This document shows positions 34,693-50,835 of a stretch of 64,000 bases of DNA, piece by piece. Position 1 is the first letter of the stretch, and each line of letters starts with the position of its first letter. Below the pieces are notes generated by a model that was not told where the DNA came from, did not search any database, and worked only from the letters and a program-made list of their open reading frames with translations. The position numbers and the translations under genes are program-made. Origin of the DNA: a virus. The stretch is taken from positions 1 through 64,000 of IMG/VR virus record IMGVR_UViG_3300020463_002275. The stretch is one strand, 5' to 3'.

Positions 34693-35221
34693 TAAAGTTT
34701 GTTTTACATTTGAGTTTGAATATGATATGAAAGCATTAGCAGACATAGTGTATAATATTGACAAATGGGATAGTTATATTCCACCAAAGTGGGATGAAAC
34801 AAAATACACTATTAATAATTTTACTGGTGTAACATATAGGTATTATGAAGATTTACAAAACAAAGAACCTATAAAAACAATAAGAGAAAAATTAAATTTT
34901 CCATATTTGGATTATAAGACAACTCAACTACTAAAGTTTCCTCCGCATAATGGACCTACTATTCATAGAGATACGGAACGACATACTGCTATACTTTTTC
35001 CGATATATACTAATGAAGTATACGAACCTATAAAATTTTATCATGATGATACATCAGAATGGTTTGAAGTAGACTATCATGATAAGGTAATTGTATTTGA
35101 TGCAAAAGTGTTACATGCAGTTGCAAATAAAGAGTATAATAGATTTAGTTTACAGTTTGATTTTAAAGAAACGTATAAAGAAGTATATGAAAAATATTGT
35201 AACGGAGAATTTTTTGCTTAA
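34685..35221 (+). CDS. 2OG-Fe(II)/Asp-Asn-hydroxylase-like protein
   Basis: 178 residues. GPTIHRDTERHTAILFPIY holds H-x-D and the adjacent strand; VIVFDAKVLHAVANKEYNRFSLQFDF the distal His and Arg. Overall similar in length to the 30644 and 38840 proteins. It is coupled to the hydrolase upstream, and its end overlaps the start of the cobalamin-type radical SAM gene. Confidence 0.7.
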   Translation: MDNKVCFTFEFEYDMKALADIVYNIDKWDSYIPPKWDETKYTINNFTGVTYRYYEDLQNKEPIKTIREKLNFPYLDYKTTQLLKFPPHNGPTIHRDTERHTAILFPIYTNEVYEPIKFYHDDTSEWFEVDYHDKVIVFDAKVLHAVANKEYNRFSLQFDFKETYKEVYEKYCNGEFFA

Positions 35222-37397
35222 CGTTTTCGGAGTACAATTGAATGCACACTATACTGTGACACTTCCTGTTAGTTTAGGAACATTGTGGTCGTATCTTTAT
35301 ACAGTAAAAGATGTATACAAACATTTGAATCATACAGGCTGGGCAACTTATCATAAGCCTGAAACTAGTGTAATGGAACTGTTTCCAGAAGTTGATAAAA
35401 ACGGTGCACCTGATGTAGTGCTTGTTAGTTTATACATGTGGAATAGAAACAGATCCATAAAACTTACAAAAGCAATTAAAGAAAAATATCCTGATGTAAA
35501 AATTATTGTCGGAGGAAATGAAGTTCCTCAAGATCCTGAAAGATTTAAACAGTTTGTTGCTGATAATCCTCAGTTTGATTACTATGTTAACAGTGAAGGC
35601 GAAATGGCATTAGAAATGATGTTGCGAAAAATACTTGCTGAAAAAGGTATTTACAAGTCAAAATATTATGAAGATTGTTATCACCAAACAAAAAATGGCA
35701 AAATTATTAGTAAGCAAACAACTAGACGTTACTTAAATCATAAAGCAGAATTAGATTATCCTAGTGCATGTGCATTAGGACTATATGATGACTTAGTTGC
35801 AAAATTGCCTAAAGATATACAAATACAAGGTGTATTAGAAACTAATAGAGGATGTCCTTACACTTGTACATTCTGTGATTGGGGATTAGAAGAAAAACTA
35901 AGACGTTTTAGCATGAAGCGTATCAAGGACGAAATTGATTGGTATGTAGGCAACGTACACGAAATAATGTTTTCTGATGCTAACTTTGGCATTTTGCATA
36001 GAGATCTAGATATTGCAAAATATTTAATCAAGGCAAAATTACAACATCCTAATCCTAAATTACATACAACAGCAATTACGTATGCAAAAAATAACAAAGA
36101 AAGAGTTTTACGTATTGCAGAGATATTAGAGAAATTTGACTTTAGTAGAAGTGGTGCAACTTTTAGTTTGCAAAGTTTACATACTCCTACACTTGAAGCA
36201 ATCAAAAGAGATAACTTGAGTATTACAAAAGATTTTGAATGGATTGCACAAAACTTTATTAAAAAAGGCTTACCTTACTATCATGAAATGATTATGGGAA
36301 TGCCGTTAGAAACAAAAGAAAGTTTTCTAAACGGTATGAGTAAGTTGTTAAAATATAATCCATTAGAAATAAATGTATACAAATTAGCATGGTTGGAAAA
36401 CAGTGAAATAAGTTTAGAAAAACATGAAGATATTTACAAGTTAGAATGGGACGAGTTTGAACAAGGACCTAGTCCGTTTGAAGATGAAAAAGAATATGCA
36501 TATATCATTGGAAGTACGAGTACGATTACACGAAAAGATATGAGATATATTAGAGACATACGTGATTTGATACAAGTGTTATGGTTAGGAAGAACAATAT
36601 TCTATGTAGGAAGATATCTACAAAACGAATATGACATTGAAGCATGTGATATGATTGAAAAAATTGTTGACTGGTTTCAAACAAAAGGCGATAAAGAATT
36701 TTTTGATACATTGTTAGCAAGTAAAGAAGATGCAGTGCGTGATAAAAAAAGAGATGTACCTCTTTGGTTTCCTTACCAAAAAGATAAATTAAAATTCCAT
36801 AGGTATTCTAATGCTTGGTTATTTTTACACGGCACAAAAGAAAGAAAAAATCATTTCTATGAACAAATTACACAGTTTTTCTTAGACACTTACAAGCAAG
36901 TAGACAAAGACTTATTATTAGATCTTATACACTTCAATAAAAATATACTTATTGATGGAGAACAAACTGAATTCAATACAAACTTTACAACAAAGTATAG
37001 TTGGATTGATTATTTTACGAAAGGCCAACTTATGAAATCTAAGACAACATATGATGCTAAAATAGAAGTTGCTGGAAATACAAAAGTTTCTAAAGATGCT
37101 GTTGATCGAAATGTTTTCTTATATTATATTTCAGGCGGACATGAATTCATGTTTAACAAACAAAATGCATTTTATTATCCAGATGGAACATACACAAACG
37201 AACAAGGCATACATCATTACATAAGTAGAATAGGAATGTTTTATCCTAAAGATACTTACTTTGAAAGTGCTGAAGATATTATTGATAGTATATTAAACGA
37301 AGAAGATATTGATATTAAAGAATATATTACTAGTGCAAGACTTAAAATATCAAAAAATATTAACGAAGAATTAAATCCTTTTAAAGTTTCTGCTTAA
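35214..37397 (+). CDS. B12-binding-domain radical SAM enzyme
   Basis: About 727 residues from TTG 35214 (GGAG at 35204-35207); ATG 35187 is an alternative with a weaker ribosome site. The N-terminal domain (DVVLVSLYMWNRN, IIVGGNEVPQ, YYVNSEGEMALEMML) matches the Rossmann-like B12-binding domain of class B radical SAM enzymes. NRGCPYTCTFCDWG near residue 213 is the CxxxCxxC cluster. Long C-terminal extension unknown. The family includes methylases and other C-C bond enzymes. Last gene of the + strand operon; its end overlaps the opposing operon by 17 nt. Confidence 0.85.
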   Translation: MLNVFGVQLNAHYTVTLPVSLGTLWSYLYTVKDVYKHLNHTGWATYHKPETSVMELFPEVDKNGAPDVVLVSLYMWNRNRSIKLTKAIKEKYPDVKIIVGGNEVPQDPERFKQFVADNPQFDYYVNSEGEMALEMMLRKILAEKGIYKSKYYEDCYHQTKNGKIISKQTTRRYLNHKAELDYPSACALGLYDDLVAKLPKDIQIQGVLETNRGCPYTCTFCDWGLEEKLRRFSMKRIKDEIDWYVGNVHEIMFSDANFGILHRDLDIAKYLIKAKLQHPNPKLHTTAITYAKNNKERVLRIAEILEKFDFSRSGATFSLQSLHTPTLEAIKRDNLSITKDFEWIAQNFIKKGLPYYHEMIMGMPLETKESFLNGMSKLLKYNPLEINVYKLAWLENSEISLEKHEDIYKLEWDEFEQGPSPFEDEKEYAYIIGSTSTITRKDMRYIRDIRDLIQVLWLGRTIFYVGRYLQNEYDIEACDMIEKIVDWFQTKGDKEFFDTLLASKEDAVRDKKRDVPLWFPYQKDKLKFHRYSNAWLFLHGTKERKNHFYEQITQFFLDTYKQVDKDLLLDLIHFNKNILIDGEQTEFNTNFTTKYSWIDYFTKGQLMKSKTTYDAKIEVAGNTKVSKDAVDRNVFLYYISGGHEFMFNKQNAFYYPDGTYTNEQGIHHYISRIGMFYPKDTYFESAEDIIDSILNEEDIDIKEYITSARLKISKNINEELNPFKVSA

Positions 37398-38061
37398 ACT
37401 CAGTTACACCTAAACCTATTTTATTTTCATTGTCAAATCTTGGATCATTCCATTCTTTTTTAATTTCTTTTGGAAACGGTAAACTAGTATATTCTAAACT
37501 TTCAATATTTTTATAATATTCTTTGTTAGGTTTCCAAGGAGACCCTATACAAACAGTTAATTTTATATCATTACCTGTATTAGTCATACCATGTGGGTGT
37601 GAGCCGTTTATAACATATGCATCAGTTTGTGGTTCGTAATAATGCTTATTGCTATTTCCATCAAAGAAATACAGTGTGCTTTCTTTTTTGCCTTTGACCA
37701 CCCATCTAAATTTATGTTGCATTCCGCCAACTTCTTCTGGCGCACTATCAACATGATCATTTAACATTTCGCCAGGCTTAGTTTTGATAACTGTGACATT
37801 TCCTACTCCACCAATATAAGGAAAAACGTAATCACGCAAAGCAACAACTGATGCTGATTCTTTTGGTAAATTAGGATTAAAACTGTATTGTTCAAACCAG
37901 CCAACGTCCGGCCTAGCATTATATAAACTACACATCCATGCACCATGAAATTTAATCCAGTACCAATCATTTTCTGGTAAAGATAATATTTCTTGTGCAA
38001 CTTGTTCTTTGTTAGGAATATCAAGATTTACAAGATCCATGTATGTAATTATTCTGTCCAT
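37381..38061 (-). CDS. 2OG-Fe(II)/Asp-Asn-hydroxylase-like protein
   Basis: 226 residues, AAGGAG just upstream of the ATG. LNDHVDSAPEEVGG (H-x-D) and YVINGSHPHGMTNTGNDIKL (distal His, then following strand) give the metal ligands, with the layout of Asp/Asn beta-hydroxylase-like proteins. The N-terminal WYWIKFHGAWMCSLYN is aromatic-rich. Last gene of the 42.0-37.4 kb operon, convergent with the + strand radical SAM gene. Confidence 0.7.
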   Translation of the reverse strand: MDRIITYMDLVNLDIPNKEQVAQEILSLPENDWYWIKFHGAWMCSLYNARPDVGWFEQYSFNPNLPKESASVVALRDYVFPYIGGVGNVTVIKTKPGEMLNDHVDSAPEEVGGMQHKFRWVVKGKKESTLYFFDGNSNKHYYEPQTDAYVINGSHPHGMTNTGNDIKLTVCIGSPWKPNKEYYKNIESLEYTSLPFPKEIKKEWNDPRFDNENKIGLGVTEFKQKL

Positions 38062-38843
38062 GCATACTCCTTACCACAATTAACTCTATACAATAACCTA
38101 TTAGGATTATCTGTAGGCGGGCGTCTGTGTTGTGTAAACAAACTTTCTGTTATAAACAAATCACCAATGTCCCATTTGTGTTCGTAAATTTTTGCTTCCT
38201 GAAATTTTGTTTGTAGTAACTCGAAATAGTAATTATTATCAGATGTTCCTCTAAGTTCTGTACAAAATAAATGTGGAAAAAATAAACCTTCATTTCCATA
38301 AGGATCTTTAATAACAATTTTTTTCCAATTAGTATGAGGTTTTATTAAGTCTTCTAAATCATTTTGAAATACATCATGATTGAAATAAAAATTTCCTTCT
38401 GCTTGTCTTAGTTCATCTTTAGCAGTTTTGCTTAGGTTATTGAAAATCATATTATTACTTAGATACTGTTGTGTGCCATTATCTAAATTTTCTATACCTT
38501 GAAACATGATAAACGGAGCAAGAGTTTTTGTAACACAATTATCACTATGCCAACCTATTTCAGCAGATTTACCCATACGTCCTTTAGGTGAACCATCTTC
38601 ATATTTTTGTCCTGTAATTTGTCCTACATACTTACACTCTGGATGGTCAACTGGACTTGCATCTGTAACATTGCCAAGTTTGTGTGCTATCTCATTTATT
38701 ACAGACCAATGTGTATCTAATTTTTTCAAAACAACAAATCCGTTTTGCCACACTAATTGTTCTAAATCAATCCAAGGATTATCTACATTATAGTTTTCTA
38801 TTTGTAGGCCAAAAGGTTTTAGTTGTGTTAATGTGCCAGTCAT
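38049..38843 (-). CDS. TauD/TfdA-type dioxygenase
   Basis: 264 residues, ATGA-coupled. EIGWHSDNCVTKTLAPFIMFQ contains the H-x-D metal pair; FITESLFTQHRRPPTDNPNRLLYRVN contains the distal His and the 2OG-binding Arg. SPVDHPECKYVGQITG is a typical TauD N-terminal block. The family hydroxylates small molecules at unactivated carbons. It keeps the Asp that the + strand paralogue at 31165 lacks. Confidence 0.85.
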   Translation of the reverse strand: MTGTLTQLKPFGLQIENYNVDNPWIDLEQLVWQNGFVVLKKLDTHWSVINEIAHKLGNVTDASPVDHPECKYVGQITGQKYEDGSPKGRMGKSAEIGWHSDNCVTKTLAPFIMFQGIENLDNGTQQYLSNNMIFNNLSKTAKDELRQAEGNFYFNHDVFQNDLEDLIKPHTNWKKIVIKDPYGNEGLFFPHLFCTELRGTSDNNYYFELLQTKFQEAKIYEHKWDIGDLFITESLFTQHRRPPTDNPNRLLYRVNCGKEYAWTE

Positions 38844-39403
38844 TGTTTATTCTCTACAGTTGTTACAAGGTGTATTCGTTTTTCAAAACTACCGTTGAAC
38901 GCAGTATGTGGCTGTGTTGTGTCTACCCAATACAAAGTTCCTTGTGGCATATGAACAGTTTTATTATCCCATACCATCATACAACGGTCATTTGTAATAA
39001 TTGGTATATGTAATCTATATGTGCTATCTTGGTGCCATGTTAAACAGGTTTTAGGCTCCATAAGTAATAACCTTGTCCTACCTATGTTAAATTTATTTTG
39101 CAAGTCTTGAAGCAACTCATAAAGATAAGTTCCTTTTAGATCAGGAACAATATTAACAAAGTCCTTTTCTTTAACTTTATCTTTACGCGGTGGAGGATTT
39201 CCCTCTCCATCCCAATTTTCGTAATCCCAATCTAAACTACCTACAGCATCTAAGTATTTGTTTTTTGATTTTTCATTTGCATATGTCAAACCTAATTGTG
39301 TTTTAAATGTATCAGAAAATAAATCCTTATTTTCAAAAAGTAAAACCGTTTCAGTTTTAAGACGTTCTATGTCTATGTTGTAATTTATAATTTGTTTATA
39401 CAT
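38840..39403 (-). CDS. 2OG-Fe(II)/Asp-Asn-hydroxylase-like protein of cassette A
   Basis: 187 residues. CLTWHQDSTYRLHIPIITN has H-x-D and the Arg-containing strand; LYWVDTTQPHTAFNGSFEKRIHLV has the distal His and 2OG Arg. Directly follows the PLP gene (2 nt gap). It is the fourth member of the radical SAM / PP-loop / PLP / oxygenase series of this operon. Confidence 0.75.
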   Translation of the reverse strand: MYKQIINYNIDIERLKTETVLLFENKDLFSDTFKTQLGLTYANEKSKNKYLDAVGSLDWDYENWDGEGNPPPRKDKVKEKDFVNIVPDLKGTYLYELLQDLQNKFNIGRTRLLLMEPKTCLTWHQDSTYRLHIPIITNDRCMMVWDNKTVHMPQGTLYWVDTTQPHTAFNGSFEKRIHLVTTVENKQ

Positions 39404-39405
39404 TT

Positions 39406-40269
39406 TTACTCCGATAATATTTTAGAAATACATATCCTATTACATAATCCATCACGACTAAATTCTTTCCAATTATCATTTTTACTTAAACCAAATAATA
39501 AAGTATTACTTGTATCAATTCCAAAGAAAGTACATACTTCTTTTGATTGTTGTATATACTTATTATAAATGAAAGACAAGTTAAATTTATTCATTAATTT
39601 GATATGCAAATTCATACTAAAGTGATTTAAATAATACCAATCGTTTAATTGTTTGACTGGTGTTTGTATTTCTTCTTTATCAAATTTCATACCTATTTTA
39701 TTCATACCTGTAGCAAAAACTTTACTAAGACTTGTTGCTACACTTTTGATACAAGGTTCGTTAATATTTACATCACCGATATTGCTAATATTAAGATATG
39801 CACAATCTAATAATACATCTACTTTGTTATTATTACAATGTTCTATAATGCTGTAATAATCTTCATGTATATTGCCTGTAGCACTAAATGGTGTACTTAA
39901 TATCAAAGTTTGCCCTTTTTTTATGTCCGAAAAGTGTTCTAATACAGTACAACCATTACGTGCATGGAATGGATATTCTCCTTTTAACACTACTAAATTT
40001 GCTATTGTATAGTATGCATACCAGTCCATAAAAGCACCTGTTACACCGTCTATAACGCCCGTACAAGCGAATTTATCCAGTCCTAGTACATTTGAGTGCT
40101 TATACTCATTTAATTGGTTTTTATATAAATTTTTAAATAAATCTATGTCAGCAAACGTCATAATTGTAGTTGGTTCGTTCCAGCAATCAGCCGAGACTTC
40201 ACGAACATAATCATAAACTTCTTTATCAAATATAGGTCTTGCACCAGTCTGTAAATGTGTTTTATCCAC
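39406..40269 (-). CDS. short PLP-dependent aminotransferase-fold protein of cassette A
   Basis: 287 residues if started at GTG 40269, which overlaps the PP-loop stop as expected for this genome; an in-frame ATG at 40365 would overlap that gene by 104 nt and is less likely. VATSLSKVFATGMNKIGMKF near residue 183 is the PLP-Lys motif; LLDCAYLN is the preceding Asp strand. Same size and motif spacing as the 44521 protein (Lys near 184), so they are paralogues. Confidence 0.7.
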   Translation of the reverse strand: MDKTHLQTGARPIFDKEVYDYVREVSADCWNEPTTIMTFADIDLFKNLYKNQLNEYKHSNVLGLDKFACTGVIDGVTGAFMDWYAYYTIANLVVLKGEYPFHARNGCTVLEHFSDIKKGQTLILSTPFSATGNIHEDYYSIIEHCNNNKVDVLLDCAYLNISNIGDVNINEPCIKSVATSLSKVFATGMNKIGMKFDKEEIQTPVKQLNDWYYLNHFSMNLHIKLMNKFNLSFIYNKYIQQSKEVCTFFGIDTSNTLLFGLSKNDNWKEFSRDGLCNRICISKILSE

Positions 40270-40903
40270 TCTGATCAAACCCCCATTTGCGTTCTTCACA
40301 CCACCAACACTTACCACAATGTTCCATGCCCGGATCTGGAGTGTCAAATTCTTTAATCCATTCACAACTTCTTGTTAAGGGAAATAAGTTTTCTAAAAGA
40401 TTATATTTCTTATATATTTTACATAGATATTTTTTATCAATATTAGTCCACGGAGTAAACCCAATTCCGTCTTTTGTATTTCTTACTATATTAGGATCTC
40501 GTTCATGAGTTTCTGTTGTTGCTTGACTAAAAGTATCAGTTACAGACTTAGGTGGGTCTTTGGTTATACCTGTGTATACATGAGTGATAGTTTTATTGTT
40601 ATAATACTGTTTTGGTGTATTAAATAACTTTTCGTCTGTTTGTGTAGTTGCATATGAAATGTGGTGTAAAAAGTTGTAGTTGTTTGTAAGTTCTGCACAC
40701 TTACTTACTACGTTTACTGATGCTAATGCATTACATATATTCTTACTTTGATTTGCTAACGTAAAAATGTGAAGTTTATGGTTCGAATATTTTAATAAAA
40801 AATATAATAGTAATGCACTATCTGCTCCACCACTTACTGTAATACCCAAAGTTGAATCTGGTATTTCTAACTCTAAGTTATCAATAACATTTATAGTAGC
40901 CAT
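40262..40903 (-). CDS. QueC-like PP-loop ATPase of cassette A
   Basis: 213 residues. TVSGGADSALLLYFL near residue 22 is the PP-loop (SGGxDS) that adenylates substrates. The C-terminus TRSCEWIKEF, then HCGKCWWCEERKWGF, copies the QueC ending (SC...CGxCxxCxxR), which binds zinc. QueC turns 7-carboxy-7-deazaguanine into preQ0. Either this is a divergent QueC or, given its PLP/oxygenase neighbours and a second copy at 45441, an enzyme activating another carboxylate. One base separates it from the upstream radical SAM gene. Confidence 0.75.
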   Translation of the reverse strand: MATINVIDNLELEIPDSTLGITVSGGADSALLLYFLLKYSNHKLHIFTLANQSKNICNALASVNVVSKCAELTNNYNFLHHISYATTQTDEKLFNTPKQYYNNKTITHVYTGITKDPPKSVTDTFSQATTETHERDPNIVRNTKDGIGFTPWTNIDKKYLCKIYKKYNLLENLFPLTRSCEWIKEFDTPDPGMEHCGKCWWCEERKWGFDQSG

Positions 40904-40904
40904 A

Positions 40905-42014
40905 CTATTTCCTTTTAGGTATCTTTGAATCTGCTGAACTTACACAACTTTTAGTAATACACGTTTTAGGTGTCTTAAACAGTTCGAAACCTGTTTCTAT
41001 GTTGCCTAGTGGTGCATCATGGCACGAATAACTCCTTTTTACGCTACCGTCTGGCTCGCGTATTATAAGTCCGCTAAAACCGGCGTTACACCGCCATCCT
41101 TCGAAATTATTGAAATTAAAGGCATTAAAACGTTCTGCTTGGTCCATATACCACTTTTTACCATTAGAATCTTTTAGTTCTACTTGCATATGCCAAGGAA
41201 CACTGGCATCATTTTTTCCTTCTACTCCATGAGGTATTTGGAATGAGGCTTTCGGTCTTTCTGCCCAGACTCTCTTACTTTCTGTGTATCCTCTTTGTGG
41301 CATTCCGTTCCAGAGTCTTTTAAGATCTTCCTCCTTGTATCCTTCAACCACTCTTGAGGCTGTTGGATCGGACTGAGGTTTAAGAGTGACATTGATACCA
41401 CGTTCGTGGAAGAAGAGAGCGTTTTCCCAATCCCTTTCAAAGTGTTCAGGCACCATGACCTGATTAATTGTAACTTGTACATCATGTTCTTGACACAAGA
41501 TCAATTTGTCTGCAAAGTCTTGCATCTTCTCCTTACTGTTTACGTGTTCTACATGCAGACTTGCGGTTATGCTTGCTCTATGAAATGGTTTAGCATATTC
41601 AACATAAGTGTTAAACCATTTCATAGGTCGGCTACAATTACTAGTCATATGAATACTAGTATAATTTGTATTAGATACATCGTCGGCTAGATACTTTAAT
41701 ATATCCAAGTATCCAGGATGGAATGTAGGTTCTCCCCCTGACAGGGAGAAGTGAAAACTGTTGAAACCGTTGTCTCTGGCTTGACGTTTAATCTCATCCA
41801 CTGTTCGCAAGCATAACTCGGTAGGACGGTGGTCTTTACGATCGCTTCTTGCGTAAGGCCAACAGTAGGAACATCTATAGTTACAGAACCTTCCGAGTAG
41901 CCAGGATACAGTAAATAAATCACGATAAAGCAAAGTGCGTTGACCCACAGAGACAATATCGCCAAACGGGATCTTTGTAAAATCATAATTGCTCCATTTT
42001 AAATCTTCTGTCAT
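40905..42014 (-). CDS. radical SAM enzyme with auxiliary Cys, cassette A
   Basis: 369 residues. LLGRFCNYRCSYCWPY gives C44, C48, C51; SLSGGEPTFHP is the SAM-binding GGE. The C-terminal WRCNAGFSGLIIREPDGSVKR, CHDAPLGN and KTCITKSC block resembles a SPASM/twitch-type auxiliary Fe-S region and closely parallels the end of the 46133 enzyme. Likely to act on a peptide or bound carrier as SPASM proteins do, but not certain. The ATG follows the promoter's -10 by six bases, implying leaderless mRNA. The gene is more GC-rich than its neighbours. Confidence 0.85.
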   Translation of the reverse strand: MTEDLKWSNYDFTKIPFGDIVSVGQRTLLYRDLFTVSWLLGRFCNYRCSYCWPYARSDRKDHRPTELCLRTVDEIKRQARDNGFNSFHFSLSGGEPTFHPGYLDILKYLADDVSNTNYTSIHMTSNCSRPMKWFNTYVEYAKPFHRASITASLHVEHVNSKEKMQDFADKLILCQEHDVQVTINQVMVPEHFERDWENALFFHERGINVTLKPQSDPTASRVVEGYKEEDLKRLWNGMPQRGYTESKRVWAERPKASFQIPHGVEGKNDASVPWHMQVELKDSNGKKWYMDQAERFNAFNFNNFEGWRCNAGFSGLIIREPDGSVKRSYSCHDAPLGNIETGFELFKTPKTCITKSCVSSADSKIPKRK

Positions 42015-42020
42015 GATATT

Positions 42021-42049
42021 ATTATACGATAAATATGATTATATGTCAA
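42021..42049 (-). promoter_or_regulatory. sigma70-type promoter of the 42.0-37.4 kb operon
   Basis: Read on the minus strand: TTGACA (42049-42044), a 17-nt spacer and TATAAT (42026-42021). The start codon begins at 42014, so the transcript start is expected at or within a base or two of the ATG. No ribosome-binding site fits between. Confidence 0.85.
42028..42035 (+). promoter_or_regulatory. T4-late-like box GATAAATA for nitroreductase gene
   Basis: GATAAATA on the + strand, 54 nt before the nitroreductase ATG. It lies entirely within the spacer of the divergent minus-strand promoter, so the two promoters occupy the same DNA. Confidence 0.45.
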
Positions 42050-42089
42050 GCACAACATACATATACTTATTAATACGGAGAATTTTAAT

Positions 42090-42680
42090 ATGAAGGATAT
42101 GATTAGACTGGCTAGAACTGTAGAACGCTGTCAAAGGAATTTTGATCATACGAAAAGAATACCTAATAAACATGTAAAATACATTTTGAACTGTGCTACT
42201 AGTATGCCTACAAAACAGCAACAAAATTTTTATAACATTACAGTTATAGAAGAAGAGCCTCTTGCAAGAGAGTTTTATACTACTTGTTCTATTGCAGACG
42301 GTGAAGAATGGAGGAATAGCCAAACTTATGCTCCATTAGTTTTATTATATTCGACTTACCCGAAATATAACAGATATGAGCCATATAATGATATAGCGAT
42401 GTCTATAGGGCTCAGTTCAGGAGCCGCCGCACTTGCCGCCGCCAATTTGGGATATAAAACAGGTTTTTGTAAATGCATCGACGAACATCTAACAAATGCA
42501 TTTGTTTGGGATCATTTTCGTAAAAAAGTATGGGATCCAACACTGGCAGTAGGAATAGGACATTCTTTAGAAGGATTCGACAGAACTGAAGGTGTATTAG
42601 ATGGTGAAGTAAAATATCAAGCAGAATCCAATGGAGACAAAGAAATTAAAATTTTTAGACGTCCGCGGCCATCTCCTTAA
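42090..42680 (+). CDS. nitroreductase-fold FMN oxidoreductase
   Basis: 196 residues, CGGAG at 42077-42081. PNKHVKYILNCATSMPTKQQQNFY fits the N-terminal FMN-contact block (R/K, then S-M-P-T) and NDIAMSIGLSSGAAALAAANLGYKTGFCKCID the second FMN block of the nitroreductase superfamily. Members reduce nitro groups, quinones, enones or flavins, or oxidise heterocycles in natural-product pathways. The only + strand gene between the two minus operons; its end overlaps the opposing radical SAM gene by 26 nt. Confidence 0.8.
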   Translation: MKDMIRLARTVERCQRNFDHTKRIPNKHVKYILNCATSMPTKQQQNFYNITVIEEEPLAREFYTTCSIADGEEWRNSQTYAPLVLLYSTYPKYNRYEPYNDIAMSIGLSSGAAALAAANLGYKTGFCKCIDEHLTNAFVWDHFRKKVWDPTLAVGIGHSLEGFDRTEGVLDGEVKYQAESNGDKEIKIFRRPRPSP

Positions 42681-43839
42681 TTGTTGTCCAAATAGTTTTA
42701 CCATTCAAACTTCCAATATCTTTTTTGAAAACAGGTTCTAAGTGTTTTGTTCTTTGTGTAAATATTTCTTTTGCATCTTGTTCATGTAATGCTTTAGGAC
42801 TACAAAGACCACAACCACAATGAAACTTAGGACATCTAATTACAGGCATCTTTCCACTGCGTAACGATTTTCTTAGTTTATCTATTATTGGTTTAAAATT
42901 ACTTGCTTTTCCAATTGGTCCTATTTCACCATCCATATTAACTTGACATGTTTGATGATGCCACACGCCGTCAAGTTCGCTGTTAATAAAAAGAAAGTCC
43001 CAGTTTACCATACAATGCCAACCATGAAAATTAGTTGTAGGTACTCTAAAATCTCTAGACCATTTATCGGCTACTTTAATATTTAGACACTTACCATTAC
43101 AGCACGGTCTACCAATAGTTTCAAGAGAGGTTTTTTTCTGTGCCATATGCATGGTATTTTTTACAGGTTTCGGTTTTAGTTTCTTAGTCCACTGATTTTT
43201 AAAATACTCTAATTGCTTATCTGTATATGCATGTGCAGTACCGTCTAATAAATCAGATTTATTATTACTATCACCTATGGGTCTGCTAGTATATGTTATA
43301 CCTAACTCGTCAAACCATTCCGCTAATTCAATACACTCTTCAAAATAATCTTTGTGAAACATATGATTAATTCTAAAATTATATCCGCTTTCATGCATTA
43401 ATTTTATATTTTCTATTACTAATTTTTTCTGCTCCGGAGTGCCTTCAGCATGATAACTTAATGTAGTGCTATTAATACATTCCATAATCTGCTTGCAACG
43501 CTTTGCTGTATAACATCCGTTTGTTGTAATATTAGACCTTATAAATGGATATGTTTCTTTAGCATATTGCACAAATTTAAAAAACGCAGGATGTATTGTT
43601 GGTTCACCGCCTGTGTATGCAATATCTAATTTAAGAGGATCTTTTCTATATAAGTCTAATAATTGTGCATACTCTACAATTCCGTCTAATGTATGTTTGA
43701 GTACGTTTATATCGACTAGTGGACTTGTTTTGTTACTGTGATGTGGTCCGCAATAACTACATGCGTAAGTGCATCTTCTGCCTAAATCCCATACTACGCT
43801 AAAATCTTCTTTCCGCGTATGGTTAATAGCGTTTAGCAC
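42655..43839 (-). CDS. radical SAM enzyme with C-terminal Cys cluster
   Basis: 394 residues. LGRRCTYACSYCGPHH gives C23, C27, C30; IAYTGGEPTIHP is the GGE motif. Further Cys residues: RPCCNGKC, WHCMVNWDF, HHQTCQVNMDG and RCPKFHCGCGLCSP, enough for one or two auxiliary clusters. The last residues overlap the convergent nitroreductase gene. Last gene of the long minus operon. Substrate unknown; the auxiliary Cys pattern suggests a peptide or carrier-linked substrate. Confidence 0.85.
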   Translation of the reverse strand: MLNAINHTRKEDFSVVWDLGRRCTYACSYCGPHHSNKTSPLVDINVLKHTLDGIVEYAQLLDLYRKDPLKLDIAYTGGEPTIHPAFFKFVQYAKETYPFIRSNITTNGCYTAKRCKQIMECINSTTLSYHAEGTPEQKKLVIENIKLMHESGYNFRINHMFHKDYFEECIELAEWFDELGITYTSRPIGDSNNKSDLLDGTAHAYTDKQLEYFKNQWTKKLKPKPVKNTMHMAQKKTSLETIGRPCCNGKCLNIKVADKWSRDFRVPTTNFHGWHCMVNWDFLFINSELDGVWHHQTCQVNMDGEIGPIGKASNFKPIIDKLRKSLRSGKMPVIRCPKFHCGCGLCSPKALHEQDAKEIFTQRTKHLEPVFKKDIGSLNGKTIWTTIKEMAADV

Positions 43840-44521
43840 TTAAATCTCCTTTAGGAATATCGGTAGAACCAAATCCTATGATTGCTCGTTTGTATTCTGT
43901 ACTTGTTTCTAAAAGTTCTTTGCTAGATAGATACCAACTGCTACTATGCCATCTTGCAGTATCAAACACCATTGCTGTGCCTAATTTCCATTCATAAACA
44001 CTTTCAACTTTTAAATCAAAATATAACCTGTGATACCATGTGCCTCTTGGATTATACTTTGCAACTTCTTCATCTAAATTTTCTGTATGTCTGTAATTAA
44101 TAATTTCACCATTGTCAGTATACTTCATATTACCATCTTTGTATATTGCTTTTCTAGGTTTATGTTCTACTCTATCGTAATTTACTGTGTAGGGTTGTTT
44201 ACAGTTCCATTCTAAAGGTATTATTACTCCTACATCAACTCTACAATCAGTTGTATCGTCCCAAGGTACAGTAGTAAAATCAGTATGTAATCCAGCAGGC
44301 TCTCCACTATGAAAATATTGAAACTTCCAATCAAATTTACCAAGTCCTAAAGAATCAGAAAAATAATTTCCAATGTGTTCGTTTATGTTTTTAGGTGTAT
44401 CAACAAAGTAATTTAAATTAAACTTACCTGTGTATTTAATTTTATCAGAAAGAAATGCTTCCTGGGCCAATTCTTTGTAATAATTTATATCTAAATTTAT
44501 ATCGTAACTTCCATATTGCAT
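43823..44521 (-). CDS. 2OG-Fe(II) oxygenase-like protein of cassette B
   Basis: 232 residues, start sharing a base with the PLP stop. HSGEPAGLHTDFTTVPWDD has the H-x-D; GTAMVFDTARWHSSSWYLSS the distal His, followed by an Arg strand (EYKRAIIGFG). It fills the fourth place in the radical SAM / PP-loop / PLP / oxygenase order, parallel to the 38840 gene, though the sequences are not closely similar. Confidence 0.75.
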   Translation of the reverse strand: MQYGSYDINLDINYYKELAQEAFLSDKIKYTGKFNLNYFVDTPKNINEHIGNYFSDSLGLGKFDWKFQYFHSGEPAGLHTDFTTVPWDDTTDCRVDVGVIIPLEWNCKQPYTVNYDRVEHKPRKAIYKDGNMKYTDNGEIINYRHTENLDEEVAKYNPRGTWYHRLYFDLKVESVYEWKLGTAMVFDTARWHSSSWYLSSKELLETSTEYKRAIIGFGSTDIPKGDLSAKRY

Positions 44522-45444
44522 TATATACGCTCTTCTCTTTCAACTTTATTTAATCCTTTGTCTGTACCACGTTCATCAAATACACCTTCAATTAAAAACC
44601 GTAAAGGTGTACGCACACCAAATTGATGCTTACCGTCCGCATCACTTATCCATCCTACATGAATACTATCTGATTCTTGTAAATTAAAATCTGCACACAC
44701 TTTTGTATATAAATTTTCATAATTACTCCACCAAAAATCTGTACCAAAATGTTGCATTGCTTCTGCTCCTAGCCACATATCACTTACATTTGCATAAGCA
44801 AAATCGTTCATAATAGCAATAGGTCCATTTACACGTTCTCTAGTATAGCGTATGCCAATACGTTGACTGCCCATACCAAGTGCTTTTGATAAACTTACAC
44901 TAACACTTTTAACAGCAGGATGTGTAACATCAAATTCAAAATTTCTACATTGTCCAAACCATGCTCCATCAATGTGTACTGGAATGTCATGTCTGTCGCA
45001 ATGATCTAACAACTTGTCAAAATCCTTATGATAATTTGTAGTGATACAACTAGGATAACTTACTATGAAAACATCACCTTTTTTAAGATCACTATAATGA
45101 GTAATTTGATTTACAGTAAAGTCTGTTAAGCGTCTATGATACTTGTATTCACCTTTGTATACTGTTATATTACGTCCATACAGTTGATGTAATTCATCTA
45201 ATTGGTGTGTAGTTCCTAAAATTGCATCTCTACGTACAAAAGTGTTTAATCCTTTGTACTGCACACGTTTATGTGCGTTAATCCATTCGTCGATAATTTG
45301 TAAAAATATTTTTGTATACTCATGAGGATCTTTTGGATATCTTTGCATATCTAAATTTTCTCTAAATTTGGTAAACTTGCTAAGGTACATAGGCCTTTGC
45401 CGTCTGGTACCTAGCATTTCAAATGTTATATCTTCATACTTCAT
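44521..45444 (-). CDS. short PLP-dependent aminotransferase-fold protein of cassette B
   Basis: 307 residues from ATG 45444, which forms an ATGA overlap with the PP-loop stop. PVHIDGAWFGQC contains the PLP-N1 Asp; SVSVSLSKALGMGSQRIGIRY near residue 184 the Lys motif and following R-x-G. KGEYKYHRRLTD and SYPSCITTNYH are shared in style with the 39406 paralogue. Like it, the protein is shorter than ordinary aminotransferases, lacking much of the C-terminal domain. Confidence 0.75.
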   Translation of the reverse strand: MKYEDITFEMLGTRRQRPMYLSKFTKFRENLDMQRYPKDPHEYTKIFLQIIDEWINAHKRVQYKGLNTFVRRDAILGTTHQLDELHQLYGRNITVYKGEYKYHRRLTDFTVNQITHYSDLKKGDVFIVSYPSCITTNYHKDFDKLLDHCDRHDIPVHIDGAWFGQCRNFEFDVTHPAVKSVSVSLSKALGMGSQRIGIRYTRERVNGPIAIMNDFAYANVSDMWLGAEAMQHFGTDFWWSNYENLYTKVCADFNLQESDSIHVGWISDADGKHQFGVRTPLRFLIEGVFDERGTDKGLNKVEREERI

Positions 45445-46136
45445 ACTATGCGTCCAAAACCCCAATATCTTTCTAAACAAAAAAAGCATTCTCCACAATG
45501 CAAATGATTGCCTTTATCATCTAATAATTCATAAGGCGCATTTTCACAACTAAAAGTATAAGGATATAATTTTTCCATCATATCTAATTCTTCATACGCA
45601 CTTGCAGTACCTTTTTTGTCAGTAGCACCAAAAACTCTATATGGATTTGTGTTAGGATGTGAAATATTATCCCTATCAGTATCTCTAATATCAAGATGCT
45701 TTTGTATTCTTGAGAAATCTAGTCCGTGCGTACTTGCATTTTCTTTAAAATAATTTTTCATTTCTAGTGGAGGTGGATTTTTTGTTAGTCCACTAAAAAA
45801 TCCTATATCGCCATATTTTTCTTTTACTTCTGCAACTAATTGTTCTTGGCCATTAGTATAATTTTTGTCACTATGTGGCACTGTTATAGTAAAATGTTCA
45901 GTAGGTTCTATTCCTGTAAGATCTTTTACAATACCTATAACACGTTTTGCGCCTGCAATATATAAATTTTTAAAATCTGTATCTAAAGTTACTACAATTA
46001 TTTTAGTATCTAAATTATTATCTTTGATATGTTTGCATAAAGCATAGTATAGGATAGAACTATCTGCTCCTCCGCTTAATTTCATTCCTATGTATTCGCC
46101 AATGTTTAAATTTTTAATCTTATCTAATATACTCAT
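45441..46136 (-). CDS. QueC-like PP-loop ATPase of cassette B
   Basis: 231 residues from ATG 46136, preferred over ATG 46142 because it gives an ATGA overlap and GGAG sits eight bases upstream. GMKLSGGADSSILYYAL is the PP-loop; TFSCENAPYELL, then HCGECFFCLERYWGF, is the QueC-like zinc ending. Shares the SGGADS and xKNPP motifs (GLTKNPPP here, GITKDPPK in the 40262 protein) with its paralogue. Presumed to activate a carboxylate with ATP. Confidence 0.75.
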   Translation of the reverse strand: MSILDKIKNLNIGEYIGMKLSGGADSSILYYALCKHIKDNNLDTKIIVVTLDTDFKNLYIAGAKRVIGIVKDLTGIEPTEHFTITVPHSDKNYTNGQEQLVAEVKEKYGDIGFFSGLTKNPPPLEMKNYFKENASTHGLDFSRIQKHLDIRDTDRDNISHPNTNPYRVFGATDKKGTASAYEELDMMEKLYPYTFSCENAPYELLDDKGNHLHCGECFFCLERYWGFGRIV

Positions 46137-47029
46137 ATCCATTTCTCCACTATTGCGTCCAATTTACAAGGACATGCTTTATAATTACACACTATAGGAT
46201 CCTCTGGTAGTGTGTATGCACCCGTTTTAAGATTACCCAAACTTCCACCAACACGTTTTGTACAACGTAGCATATTGCCATCTGGTTCTACCATTAATCT
46301 TTTTATACCTGCTGTACAAGTATATCCGTTGAATATATGCTTTTGTTGATCTAATACTTTCATAAACTTTAACGGATCACCATCAAAATGTAAGTTTCGA
46401 GGTATGGTCCAATCTATACCAAATGGCTTCATTTTATGCCATGCATTATTTTGTATCCATTCTCTTTGTTCGTCAGTGTATTTAAAATAGTTTGTACCAC
46501 CTATACTAGTCCTTGTAAATTTTGGAGTTATTTCTACTTTCAGATCAGTCAACCTATAATACAAAGACTTAGCACGTTCAAAATTATCTGGTGTAATCAT
46601 AAGTGGTATACTTACACTTGCTTTATGTTGCATAATTTTTGCAACTTCATAAAAATGATCATCGTCAGCAAATTCGTTATGCCAACTTAAAAAACAAAAT
46701 GCCCTGTGTGTTCTAAACTTTTCCCAATATCTTAAAGTCCTACTTGCGTTTGTACTAAATTCTACAAAAACTGTGTCTGAACTTATAGTATCTACAAAGT
46801 CCTGGAACTTAGGCCATAGTGTAGGTTCTCCGCCTAAAACTTCTACATAAAGATACTTGTTCTTTTTTTGCATTTTTTCAATAAGATCGATGTAGGGCTC
46901 CCATTCAGTTGGCCAACGTTCACTGCCATCTCTATGATAATCGTCACAGTAACTACAATTATAATTGCATACATTATGTATAAACAACGTGATAATAGCA
47001 CAGTCTAGATTTTCATTAGTTATGTGCAT
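46133..47029 (-). CDS. radical SAM enzyme with SPASM-like end, cassette B
   Basis: 298 residues. FIHNVCNYNCSYCDDY gives C21, C25, C28; VEVLGGEPTLWP is GGE. The C-terminal YTCTAGIKRLMVEPDGNMLRCTKRVGGSLGN and CNYKACPCK block parallels the 40905 enzyme (WRCNAGFSGLIIREPDG... and LGN...), marking the two as paralogues that head equivalent cassettes. The aux-cluster ending is usual for peptide-modifying enzymes. Confidence 0.85.
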   Translation of the reverse strand: MHITNENLDCAIITLFIHNVCNYNCSYCDDYHRDGSERWPTEWEPYIDLIEKMQKKNKYLYVEVLGGEPTLWPKFQDFVDTISSDTVFVEFSTNASRTLRYWEKFRTHRAFCFLSWHNEFADDDHFYEVAKIMQHKASVSIPLMITPDNFERAKSLYYRLTDLKVEITPKFTRTSIGGTNYFKYTDEQREWIQNNAWHKMKPFGIDWTIPRNLHFDGDPLKFMKVLDQQKHIFNGYTCTAGIKRLMVEPDGNMLRCTKRVGGSLGNLKTGAYTLPEDPIVCNYKACPCKLDAIVEKWI

Positions 47030-48372
47030 TAAAATAAATCCTTATATTGCGGTACAATATCTAAAATATTTTGATCACGTACTTTGTCAAGTTTTTTAGT
47101 TTGATCTACAAAATGTTCTAACCATTCCTCTGAATAGTCTTCGCTCATCATAAATTTTTCTACGCCATTTAAAACTTTTGCATAATTTCCTTTTACATGG
47201 TCACTAAAGTCTGTTGTTGCAATCCAATCCTTATGTTCTTGATAATAATCTTTTACTTGTTGTTTTAATTCAGGAGGCAAAACTTTTACATTAAAATATT
47301 TAGGACTATGACACATATGATGTGTAAGTATAGGTCTCATACCATCAATAGGATTAAATTTATCTAATCCACTTTCAGTAAGTTTCCATTTCATAAAATC
47401 TGCCATATGGAATACATTATAAGGTGTAACAGTAAACGCAAACCATGCTTTGAGATTAATTTTTTCATTTTGCTGTAGCGTCATCATATGTTTGTATACT
47501 GCATCAAACTTTGCAGGAGTGCGTTGATAGTTAAACACATCACCTATGCCATCTATACTAACACCAATTCTAATTTGTTTAAATTGTTCCCACAGATAAA
47601 CTAATCTATCAGGAACCATTGTAAGATTACTATTATATTCTAATTGTATCTGTTTACTTTTACCAGACGCTACTAAACGTTCTAAACTTTCTTGATGTTC
47701 TTTAATAATTAAAGGTTCGCCGCCAACTATATAAAGTTTTTTTGCTTTAGGCCCGTACTTTTCAAAATTACTCCAGTATCTATTATTATTTTGAAACCAA
47801 TCATATTGATCAGTATGCCACTTGCCTTTGGCATTTTTAGTAAGTTTAATTTTTTCATGTGTATCTTTGTATTCTGTTTTTCCTGTTATTGCAACAAAAT
47901 CATCATACCATTTATGACTGTCTGTAGGTCCACACATTCTACATTTTAAATTACAAAAATTACCGTATCGTACATCCATAAATTCGATTGGCAAACTTTC
48001 AGCATCAATAGTTCCATCTTCTTCAGTATGTGGTAACATTTTTTCTAAACTTATATCGCCAAACCATTTACCCCAATCGTCATTTTCATACTCACGTCTG
48101 CTACGAATACCGTTTACTTCTTCTTGTCGGCAACGTTCGCACTCAGGATGCCATTCGCCTTTCATCATTGACTTTCTTACTTCTTTTAGTATTTCTGCAT
48201 TACGTGCTTCGTTCCAATCATCTTTGCCTGCATTATACGGAGTACCATCTTCTTTAGACATGATACCACGCTTAGGACTGTAACTGTTTGTGTTACAACA
48301 AATACGCAAATCACCATTGTTACGCATGTTAATACTATTCCACGGTAATGGGCAAAAAGTACAATCACTCAT
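47029..48372 (-). CDS. twitch/SPASM radical SAM protein with N-terminal Cys domain
   Basis: 447 residues. The N-terminal region has CTFCPLPWNSINMRNNGDLRICC and HPECERCRQEE (C4, C7, C25, C26, C78, C81), an auxiliary Fe-S-type domain placed before the core. GNFCNLKCRMCGP gives C140, C144, C147; IVGGEPLIIKEH is GGE. This N-terminal-twitch architecture is shared with the next gene. Such proteins are common in marine T4-like phages with unknown substrate. Coupled to both neighbours. Confidence 0.85.
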   Translation of the reverse strand: MSDCTFCPLPWNSINMRNNGDLRICCNTNSYSPKRGIMSKEDGTPYNAGKDDWNEARNAEILKEVRKSMMKGEWHPECERCRQEEVNGIRSRREYENDDWGKWFGDISLEKMLPHTEEDGTIDAESLPIEFMDVRYGNFCNLKCRMCGPTDSHKWYDDFVAITGKTEYKDTHEKIKLTKNAKGKWHTDQYDWFQNNNRYWSNFEKYGPKAKKLYIVGGEPLIIKEHQESLERLVASGKSKQIQLEYNSNLTMVPDRLVYLWEQFKQIRIGVSIDGIGDVFNYQRTPAKFDAVYKHMMTLQQNEKINLKAWFAFTVTPYNVFHMADFMKWKLTESGLDKFNPIDGMRPILTHHMCHSPKYFNVKVLPPELKQQVKDYYQEHKDWIATTDFSDHVKGNYAKVLNGVEKFMMSEDYSEEWLEHFVDQTKKLDKVRDQNILDIVPQYKDLF

Positions 48373-49781
48373 TTGATATCCTCAAAAATATCTTTCATTT
48401 CAGGAAAAGTTTCTGCGAAAGAAATACCACGTTGCTTGTCACATAAATCTAAAAATTCTTTCATTTCAGGCAAGCGTTGTGTCCAATCTTCGCTTTCCAT
48501 AAACTGTAACATACCGTTAAGTCTGCTTATTCCATAACTAGCATTACGCCATGTATCATAATCAACTTTTCCTTTGTGCCAACTAGGAACACCTTTTTCC
48601 CAGTTTTCTTCCCACCACGGGTACCATGCTTCATATTTTTCACGACATTTTTCTTTAAACCACTTTGGTAAAATTTTAACATTAAGATGTGGTGGATGAT
48701 AAACAAAGTGATAATTAATAGCACCTGCACCAAATGGCCACATGTTAATTTTTTTAAAATTTTGTTCTAGTTTCCATTGTATAAAGTCAGGTAAGTAGTA
48801 AATGTTTAAAGCCTGTACTGCACAAGCAACTGTAACTTCTGTATTATTAGGTGTTTCGTTATCTAAAATATGAAACACTTCTTCTTGACGTTTCCAATTA
48901 CTAGGATAACGTATATAATCGTTCATTTCCTTAATACTATCTATTGAATAATGAAAACGTACTAATTTAAATTCTTTCCACAAGTCAAATAAATCTTCAC
49001 GCCATTCAACTCCATTTGAATTATAGCGTAGTTCTAAATCTTTTGCATATCCCATTTTAATTGCATGTTCAAGTATTTCGTAGTGTTCTTCAATAATAAG
49101 GCTTTCGCCTCCTGCAAAATAAATTTGTTGCATACTTGGCATTTGTTCATAAAACTGATTCCAAAATACAGGATTTTGTTTATGCCAATTATAACTACTT
49201 CCATTAAAACTACCTTTGTCTTTCCATTGCATAGTTTCTTTAAGACTTTCATCTTGTACTGCTGGAAAAATCTTTTTATAATCTTTAATCCATCCTGATG
49301 AATCATGAGGTGAACACATAACACAAGCAAGTTGGCACTTAGTTCCAAAACGTAAATCAATATATGCTAACTGTGGAGGTACACTTCCATCTTCTTTTGT
49401 ATCTGCAACTATTTTATCAACATCAACACGCTGACTCCAATAGTGTGTTTCCCACATACGTTTTGAATTATGTCCTGCGGCTTCTTCTTTGTAACACTTG
49501 ATACAACTTGGAGGCATTTCTCCGTTAAGCATTTGTTTACGCACATTCTTCATATATGTACTATTCCATGCTGTTTCAAAATCACTAACATTTAAGTTAT
49601 TAGGTCTTCCATGCTCATCTTTGAGAATACCAACTTGTCCTCCGTGTTCTTTATCGTTTGTAGGACCAACTGAACTTGCATTTGCAGTACAGCATACTCG
49701 CATGCTACCGTCAGGTCTAGTACTTAAATGTACCCAAGGTAGTAAGCAGAATGTTTCTGATGGTGATTTAAAGTCTTTCAT
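48369..49781 (-). CDS. twitch/SPASM radical SAM protein with N-terminal Cys domain
   Basis: 470 residues, paralogue of the 47029 protein. N-terminal FCLLPWVHLSTRPDGSMRVCC and PPSCIKCYKEEAAG (C12, C30, C31, C93, C96). Core GTKCQLACVMCSPHD gives C149, C153, C156; FAGGESLIIEEH replaces GGEP with GGES. The two proteins share the order N-terminal Cys domain, linker with DxRxG, core, and a long aromatic C-terminus. The gene pair probably arose by duplication. Confidence 0.85.
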   Translation of the reverse strand: MKDFKSPSETFCLLPWVHLSTRPDGSMRVCCTANASSVGPTNDKEHGGQVGILKDEHGRPNNLNVSDFETAWNSTYMKNVRKQMLNGEMPPSCIKCYKEEAAGHNSKRMWETHYWSQRVDVDKIVADTKEDGSVPPQLAYIDLRFGTKCQLACVMCSPHDSSGWIKDYKKIFPAVQDESLKETMQWKDKGSFNGSSYNWHKQNPVFWNQFYEQMPSMQQIYFAGGESLIIEEHYEILEHAIKMGYAKDLELRYNSNGVEWREDLFDLWKEFKLVRFHYSIDSIKEMNDYIRYPSNWKRQEEVFHILDNETPNNTEVTVACAVQALNIYYLPDFIQWKLEQNFKKINMWPFGAGAINYHFVYHPPHLNVKILPKWFKEKCREKYEAWYPWWEENWEKGVPSWHKGKVDYDTWRNASYGISRLNGMLQFMESEDWTQRLPEMKEFLDLCDKQRGISFAETFPEMKDIFEDIK

Positions 49782-50824
49782 TATAAGTGTACATCTCTAA
49801 CTAATTGTTTGCATTTTCTTACACAAACAAAATATGTTTGTAAGTGATCGTCTATAAGTTTCCAATAACCACCTATTATATCTACTAAATTTGTGTGGTG
49901 TAGATTATGTAAATTTTTATCAACTTTGTGTGTTTCCCAAAGTTGTTCAATCTCGTTTGGATTACCCATCCAACAACAAGGCGTTACATATCCTCTTGCA
50001 TCAACATATATATTGCCAAACTTCTTGTGAAATTCAGTATCGCCACTATTTGTTTTTGCAGGACATTTTACACAACTTATTTCAGTATTTGATTTGTGTG
50101 TTTCTTTCTTATCCTTATCACCAAATTTAATATCTGATATTTCTACATCGTCAATCTTGTTTGCATCGCTAGTATCATACCAATCTGGTACTTCAAATTT
50201 TGTATCTCTTTCGTTGTCAATTTCATCTACTACTTCTCTATCACTATGAATCAACATTAGTTTTGAAAATCCTTCTCGATCTAACCTTTCCTTTACATCA
50301 TCTAATTGATGTTTATTGTGCGAGAATACAATAAATTGCCAAACAGCATCTCCTCCTGCGGCAATGTATGCTCTAAAATTACGCTGTAGTATTTCCCATT
50401 TTACATTTCGTCTATAAAGATGATTAGTATCTTCTAAACCGTCTATACCAAAAACTACAGTTAACTTACCCTTTTTTTTACTAATACGACCTAACTTGTG
50501 CCAAAACGCAACATCTCTTGTACCACCATTGGTGCTAATTGATATTTTTTTTGTTTGTATACTTAATGTATGTGCCCATTGTACTAGATCTATTAATTCT
50601 GGATTAATAGATGGTTCATCAACACTTCCACAAAAATGAATATCTGTCAATTGATCCCAATTGTACTTACTAAACCATTTCTTGTAATTTTCTAACGTAT
50701 GTGCGGCATTATTAAGATCGCTTAAATGCATATCGGCTCTGTCGCATTGCGGACATGCCGCATTGCAATAATTTGTACATTCTAGTTGCAATCTACCAAC
50801 TTGTGTTGTATTAAACCATTCCAT
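49781..50824 (-). CDS. radical SAM/SPASM-type protein
   Basis: 347 residues. ECTNYCNAACPQCDRA gives C20, C24, C27 (C16 extra); FCGSVDEPSINPE replaces the GGEP motif. C-terminal auxiliary Cys: EISCVKCPAK, YVTPCCWMGN, FVCVRKCKQL. VFGIDGLEDTNHLYRRNVKWE is shared nearly word for word with the 50836 protein. An inserted acidic region (about 205-245) is unique. Overlaps the downstream gene by 1 nt. Confidence 0.85.
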   Translation of the reverse strand: MEWFNTTQVGRLQLECTNYCNAACPQCDRADMHLSDLNNAAHTLENYKKWFSKYNWDQLTDIHFCGSVDEPSINPELIDLVQWAHTLSIQTKKISISTNGGTRDVAFWHKLGRISKKKGKLTVVFGIDGLEDTNHLYRRNVKWEILQRNFRAYIAAGGDAVWQFIVFSHNKHQLDDVKERLDREGFSKLMLIHSDREVVDEIDNERDTKFEVPDWYDTSDANKIDDVEISDIKFGDKDKKETHKSNTEISCVKCPAKTNSGDTEFHKKFGNIYVDARGYVTPCCWMGNPNEIEQLWETHKVDKNLHNLHHTNLVDIIGGYWKLIDDHLQTYFVCVRKCKQLVRDVHL

Positions 50825-50835
50825 GATATACGTAC

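Follow-up and report, generated by a model that had tools for sequence, protein, structure and literature searches.

A conserved radical SAM island of marine phages with QueC/Cap9-like PP-loop proteins and PLP enzymes

Introduction

What do two adjacent blocks of enzyme genes do for a marine phage, and is one block a copy of the other? The question is raised by a 64,000-nucleotide stretch of DNA (the window), which is the first 64 kb of the 181,934-base IMG/VR virus record IMGVR_UViG_3300020463_002275. The record is from a marine virus of bacteria, and its layout looks T4-like, with tail, fibre and replication genes judged by eye. Cassette A (38840 to 42014) and cassette B (43823 to 47029) lie on the minus strand, and each encodes a radical S-adenosylmethionine (rSAM) protein, a PP-loop protein, a pyridoxal phosphate (PLP) enzyme and an oxygenase of the 2-oxoglutarate (2OG) type. 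The initial annotation, made from the letters alone, saw in them a duplicated four-gene cassette for a multi-step pathway. As far as gene content and order can tell, the two cassettes are parts of a single large biosynthetic island that marine phages conserve, one more widespread than that annotation could see and no simple duplication.

Marine phages rich in rSAM genes have been noted since 2017, with the roles of the enzymes left unexplained. Nishimura et al. (2017) described a 183-kb T4-like environmental genome, TARA_ERS488813_N000010, with 12 rSAM genes (PMC5332604), and Zaragoza-Solas et al. (2020) found that pelagimyophages have radical SAM cassettes within their host-recognition region (PMC7029224). 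The virus studied here shares phage type, genome size and richness in rSAM genes with such phages, but the published text that was found gives no core order, no PP-loop or PLP partners and no pathway. The earlier statement that no such phage system had been described thus holds for the composition of the cassettes, but not for multi-rSAM marine T4-like phages as such. The gene order, the PP-loop and PLP partners and a conserved protein of 74 amino acids (aa) are undescribed in the papers found, most subscription journals lying outside the search.

A conserved island of marine phages

In marine phages the island runs in the order glycosyltransferase (GT)-like gene, 74-aa protein, rS362, rS470, rS447, B_rSAM, PLP, 2OG, (C_rSAM), and further on A_rSAM, PP-loop, 2OG. 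In the window these genes are as follows, together with rS347 and the remaining cassette genes.

52681-55857, minus: 1058-aa protein, putatively GT-like (weak DUF6492 match)
52470-52694, minus: 74-aa protein at the island head, candidate substrate or carrier, conserved in IMG/VR relatives
50836-51924, minus: rS362, radical SAM, first rSAM of the conserved core (PF04055 weak per protein, above cut-off in the genome search)
49781-50824, minus: rS347, radical SAM (PF04055)
48369-49781, minus: rS470, N-terminal-twitch radical SAM (NF033640, 420 bits)
47029-48372, minus: rS447, N-terminal-twitch radical SAM (NF033640, 352 bits)
46133-47029, minus: B_rSAM, radical SAM with C-terminal Cys block, 298 aa (PF04055)
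45441-46142, minus: B PP-loop, QueC/Cap9-like ATP-dependent ligase by likeness, B clade (alignment, tree)
44521-45444, minus: B PLP, fold type I aminotransferase-like (likely ATG at 45444; longest reading frame to 45498)
43823-44521, minus: B 2OG/Fe oxygenase, HxD...H family (conserved residues; no Pfam match)
42655-43839, minus: C_rSAM, between the two cassettes (PF04055)
40905-42014, minus: A_rSAM, radical SAM, 369 aa (PF04055)
40262-40903, minus: A PP-loop, QueC/Cap9-like ATP-dependent ligase by likeness, A clade (Pfam below cut-off, alignment, PDB match, tree)
39406-40269, minus: A PLP (possible start GTG at 40269; longest reading frame to 40365)
38840-39403, minus: A 2OG oxygenase, Asp/Arg beta-hydroxylase type (PF05118, 6e-13)

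Relatives of the PLP enzymes were collected by single-protein scans with A_PLP and B_PLP. The viral and cellular scans for the PP-loop proteins used short peptide patterns, by which relatives can be missed. The order rS447, B_rSAM, PLP, B_2OG on one strand is found in 12 of 16 non-redundant B_PLP lineages (less than 90% identical to one another). All four enzyme types are grouped together in 11 lineages, and insertions of PP-loop, rSAM or methyltransferase genes occur at varying points of the core. PP-loop co-occurrence was counted in 62 non-redundant loci, for genes within the fetched stretch: 40 have an rSAM gene, 35 have at least three, and all four types are present in 10. In seven contigs (L051-L057) an N-terminal-twitch rSAM is joined to the PLP domain of the core in a single protein of 813-826 aa.

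Many distantly related phages, most of them uncultured, keep the core order, and therefore one molecule is very probably made or decorated by its products. That the island genes form a single pathway is strongly favoured. The multi-step pathway proposed at the outset is well supported by the recurrence of the four types in other phages and by the rSAM-PLP fusion. Gene content, homology, synteny, the fusion, selection and conserved catalytic residues can all be read directly from the sequences.

The 74-aa frame lies between the 1058-aa GT-like gene and rS362 and was found as a conserved small open reading frame. The viral scan yielded 213 IMG/VR relatives. In the best 80 of the 213, a gene of the GT-like family precedes the 74-aa gene in 77 loci, and in 69 an rSAM gene follows it at most two genes further on; most of the remaining loci that were inspected either have an inserted UDP-sugar-dehydrogenase-like gene or lie at the end of a contig. 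The protein is conserved over nearly its whole length, with no variable core, and many W, Y, H and N positions are invariant. It has no match in the PDB and none among GenBank phages.

Genes of the island are under purifying selection, with dN/dS mostly 0.04-0.24 against the relative L003, which is 95-99% identical to this phage in the cassette proteins. The B PP-loop (0.42) and rS447 (0.51) are outliers, and very few substitutions underlie both values. C_rSAM is only 66% identical to its counterpart (L003:13412-14590) while its neighbours are 95-99% identical, which suggests gene replacement or recombination.

Two old lineages rather than a duplicated cassette

The eight cassette genes are open frames exactly at the coordinates first reported for them, and the motifs SGGADS, KxPP, HCGxCxxCxER and EPDG are all present. 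Of the four A/B pairs, three are related. The A and B proteins are homologous for rSAM (24% identity, E 4e-22), PP-loop (27%, E 2e-19) and PLP (30%, E 3e-33), but the oxygenases are not detectably related (E 1.3; all BLASTP). The genes had been described as nearly all joined by stop/start overlaps. This is so at every junction of B (10, 4 and 1 nt, taking the ATG at 45444), but in A only the PP-loop and PLP genes overlap, the other junctions being gaps of 1-2 nt. No RNA structure was detected at the A PP-loop/PLP overlap (z -0.23). The active-site lysine of the PLP enzymes is residue 215 (A) and 205 (B) in the longest frames, and the earlier numbering of 183 and 184 hinges on the choice of start codon.

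Duplication of a whole cassette is contradicted by separate old PP-loop clades, unrelated oxygenases and an A_PLP that is nearly private to this phage. In a PP-loop tree of 83 sequences, several branches of which are moderately supported, the A protein groups with L042, L043 and L005, and the B protein with L070, L042, L043, L046, L048 and L005. Four of these loci (L005, L042, L043 and L046) each carry one PP-loop of each clade. By their sequences, the A and B PP-loops are evidently old paralogues, and a recent cassette duplication is ruled out by the tree together with the unrelated oxygenases. A close relative of A_PLP was found in only one, near-identical, phage (single-protein scan). Among the loci compared, the uninterrupted block rSAM, PP-loop, PLP, 2OG occurs only in this phage. 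In the relative L003/L004 the A block is intact and an extra rSAM gene separates PLP from 2OG in B; in other phages the PP-loop gene is relocated or further genes are inserted in the block.

A QueC/Cap9-like PP-loop family

Both PP-loop proteins match QueC/ATP_bind_3 below the Pfam cut-off. In an alignment of 23 members, SGG.DS, T..P, an R, a K and C..C..C are invariant or nearly so; within the SGGxDS loop, G25, G26 and S29 are invariant and S24 and D28 are conserved in more than 90%. The AlphaFold2 model has a mean confidence (pLDDT) of 90, and Cap9 (9nto) is the best PDB match in both the profile and the Foldseek search. Cap9, which belongs to type IV CBASS, is an ATP-dependent ligase that conjugates carboxy-deazaguanine to the N-terminus of its CD-NTase (PMC13329287, PMC11996544).

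The family resembles QueC, QatC and Cap9 in its PP-loop fold and SGGxDS motif, and Cap9 also in PF(x)4K and in the C-terminal CE...CxxCxxC cysteine zinc core. Where QueC, the 7-cyano-7-deazaguanine synthase, has the zinc motif C(x)8CxxCxxC, the A protein has four cysteines (180, 196, 199 and 202) at a longer spacing, C-x15-CxxCxxC. Unlike QueC, the PP-loops lack YPDC and VPxRN, the substrate motifs of that enzyme (PMC13329287), and have NPP at the YPDC site. They also lack the base-recognition motif of Cap9, H(x)4YxDC. Unlike Cap9 and QatC, they have no CD-NTase or Qat partner among the families named in the neighbour scans, in which CD-NTase was not searched as a family. The absence of YPDC and VPxRN leads naturally to ligase-type chemistry on another carboxylate, and a carboxylate-activating ligase is the function that we would assign with moderate confidence.

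Relatives of the PP-loop occur in viral contigs, in at least 525 of the 600 IMG/VR stretches scanned by pattern. When 84,980 cellular genomes were scanned in the same way, a single match appeared, L041, in an Acidimicrobiaceae metagenome-assembled genome. It probably lies on a contig of phage origin, since contig C81 holds every one of the 15 N_Twi matches in that assembly. The family is thus nearly phage-restricted. GenBank phages have no protein match to the A, B or L028 PP-loops or to A_PLP and no DNA match to the cassettes, and their rSAM matches are distant only. Lone PP-loops also exist among the loci. In L096, L104 and L108 the gene lies between virion and terminase-like genes, with no rSAM genes nearby.

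The partner enzymes

Eight rSAM genes with PF04055 lie within 35.8-51.9 kb (genome search), and many related contigs hold 10-22. A_rSAM is 61-85% identical across nine phages, and the B_rSAM orthologues in L042 and L070 are 75-78% identical. Both rS447 and rS470 exceed the cut-off of 170 bits for NF033640 (N_Twi_rSAM), but the A, B and C rSAM proteins do not pass it. This phage has no A-type Fe-S carrier, and 6 of 19 relatives have one.

The PP-loop and PLP assignments are firm at the family level, although the Pfam matches of both PLP proteins are weak per protein. Orthologues of B_PLP, 62-85% identical, occur in 29 further contigs. The B oxygenase has no Pfam match, and its profile found none in the PDB. 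Invariant H79-x-D81 and H192 in 25 of 25 homologues nevertheless make it a probable Fe/2OG enzyme, from a different family than A_2OG. The homologues of A_2OG carry HxD...H. The PP-loop gene adjoins an Asp/Arg-type oxygenase gene in 21 of the 62 loci, compared with 7.5 expected (none of 1,000 within-locus shuffles reaches 21), and 4-nt overlaps between the two are frequent. In L126 a Rieske-type oxygenase gene, identified by eye (6913-7995), lies directly before PLP and PP-loop genes.

What the island may make

The current thinking, held at a probability of about 45%, is that the island encodes a tailoring pathway and that its PP-loop enzyme makes an amide at a carboxylate, a glycan being the slightly favoured target. 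Unactivated carbons would be the targets of the radical SAM enzymes (rS362, rS470, rS447, B_rSAM, C_rSAM and A_rSAM). The PLP enzyme would provide an amine or rearrange one, and hydroxylation would fall to the 2OG oxygenases. The PP-loop enzymes would activate a carboxylate by adenylation and couple it to an amine, and the two old paralogues may serve two carboxylates or two amines. Two parallel substrates, as the initial annotation proposed, may be involved. The target could be an acidic sugar (a uronic or ulosonic acid) or a glycan, of the host surface or the virion, that is altered during infection.

The glycan is put slightly ahead of a peptide or protein, and only tentatively so. In L029 the PP-loop gene is flanked by a gene of the DAHP/KDO8P-synthase family and a CTP_transf_3 gene, and genes of UDP-glucose-dehydrogenase and epimerase type lie beside them. 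The commonest annotated neighbours are UDP-sugar dehydrogenases, which stand at the island head in about 12 of 80 loci. UDP-sugar dehydrogenase, KdsA/KdsB-family and carbamoyltransferase genes are present in a minority of loci. The genome of this phage has sugar genes elsewhere (G000:155502-158598 and 144356-146158; window 7650-9488), encoding an HldE-like kinase/cytidylyltransferase, epimerases, a HAD phosphatase, a cupin, a PMM, a CTP-transferase and a carbamoyltransferase.

Several observations weigh against this reading. In none of the 31 B-block loci was a sugar-nucleotide gene found within 8 kb of the PLP gene, and the glycan link is therefore to the wider islands. The large leading gene is putatively, not provenly, a glycosyltransferase, its homologues being mostly without Pfam matches, with three weak GT2 matches in a mixed set. 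The PLP model is poor (pLDDT 62). With rSAM genes so dense in the loci, their adjacency to PP-loop genes exceeds chance by a narrow margin only (p 0.043). Finally, Cap9 modifies a protein (PMC13329287, PMC11996544), and on plasmids the closest homologue of B_rSAM belongs to a cluster resembling those for ribosomally synthesized and post-translationally modified peptides (RiPPs).

These last two points belong to the best-placed, though still doubtful, alternative, in which the rSAM array, the PP-loop ligase, the oxygenases and the GT-like protein act on a phage peptide or protein, perhaps the 74-aa protein, to give a RiPP-like product, a peptide-derived cofactor or a modified virion protein. 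The 74-aa protein accompanies the island in hundreds of contigs with its invariant aromatic, His and Asn positions, but its conservation throughout leaves no variable core. Twitch/SPASM-type rSAMs are present, and Cap9, the best match of the PP-loop, acts on a protein N-terminus. The plasmid homologue of B_rSAM (28%, full length) is beside a Gly-rich 95-aa peptide and an ABC exporter with a C39 peptidase. These Photobacterium and Vibrio plasmid clusters share the rSAM subfamily with B_rSAM in full-length alignment, but they have a Gly-rich precursor and an exporter, and no PP-loop or PLP partner is annotated there. No exporter or leader peptidase is among the annotated families of the island, in which not every gene is annotated; RiPP pathways do not usually include PLP enzymes or UDP-sugar dehydrogenases, and a Nocardia homologue of B_rSAM lies in a non-peptide cluster. 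A bolder form seems improbable: an undescribed system in which at least six ordered rSAMs, a PLP enzyme, oxygenases and the phage-restricted QueC/Cap9-like ligase would act on the dedicated 74-residue protein. The product would be an extensively modified protein or a cofactor derived from a peptide, of a sort not known from any isolated phage.

Less probable again is a diffusible small molecule, derived from an amino acid or aminocyclitol, such as an antimicrobial or metal-binding compound made during infection. The constant core does hold variable tailoring genes (methyltransferases, nitroreductases, a Trp halogenase, AMP-ligases, a StrB/SxtG-like amidinotransferase and ATP-grasp), but no carrier protein or export gene was identified, and the benefit to a lytic phage is unclear.

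It is very unlikely that there is no single pathway and that unrelated auxiliary genes were gathered in a hypervariable region by frequent exchange. Exchange is visible in the divergent C_rSAM and in the gene gained between PLP and 2OG in the relative, and the lone PP-loops would fit, but the core order is kept at 62-85% PLP identity and the rSAM-PLP fusion would be hard to reconcile with it.

Nucleic-acid base modification, as 7-deazaguanine or DNA hypermodification, has the slightest chance of all: the PP-loop is QueC-like and a QueE-like protein may lie at 18903-19829 of the window (by eye; weak Fer4_12 match only), but the annotated oxygenases are of Asp/Arg-hydroxylase and TauD types, and a QueC pathway was rejected for its missing substrate motifs and queD, no PTPS match being found in the 182-kb, possibly incomplete, record.

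We take this for a new kind of phage biosynthetic island, the likeliest outcomes of which, tailoring of a surface glycan or a peptide, are known kinds of process. Given the conserved gene order, the rSAM-PLP fusion, the nearly phage-restricted ligase family and the constant 74-aa protein, heterologous expression could test what the enzymes do. If a new chemical group is indeed made or installed during infection, this bears on superinfection exclusion, on the surface chemistry of ocean hosts and on radical SAM enzymology.

Neighbouring genes and other observations

The first annotation did not mention a third PLP/Asp-Arg-hydroxylase pair, a B12-binding rSAM or the four further rSAM genes at 47029-51924. 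Other genes in or beside the island are the following.

42090-42680, plus: nitroreductase-family protein (PF00881, 1e-5)
38049-38843, minus: TauD-type 2OG oxygenase (PF02668)
37381-38061, minus: further Asp/Arg-hydroxylase-type oxygenase (profile match)
35091-37397, plus: B12-binding radical SAM, KedN5 methyltransferase-like, below the cut-off of that family; start uncertain
32126-32917 and 32895-33506, plus: third PLP/Asp-Arg-hydroxylase pair (profile matches)
31165-32142, plus: TauD gene preceding the third PLP pair

Among accessory genes of related islands, StrB/SxtG-like amidinotransferases occur in L046, L049, L127 and L223, and a tryptophan halogenase (PF04820, 2e-101) is one among 109 island neighbours (set A5).

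The genome that encodes the B12-binding rSAM also encodes a TonB-dependent receptor (G000:112126-113862, equal to L036:10126-11862; PF00593, 2e-26), the best PDB matches of which are all BtuB, the vitamin B12 receptor. A receptor of this kind is present in just one of 23 related records, G016 (L115), which likewise encodes a large B12-binding rSAM. In this phage a glutamine riboswitch (RF01739, 48.4 bits; L036:9568-9615, G000:111568-111615) precedes the receptor gene by about 500 bases.

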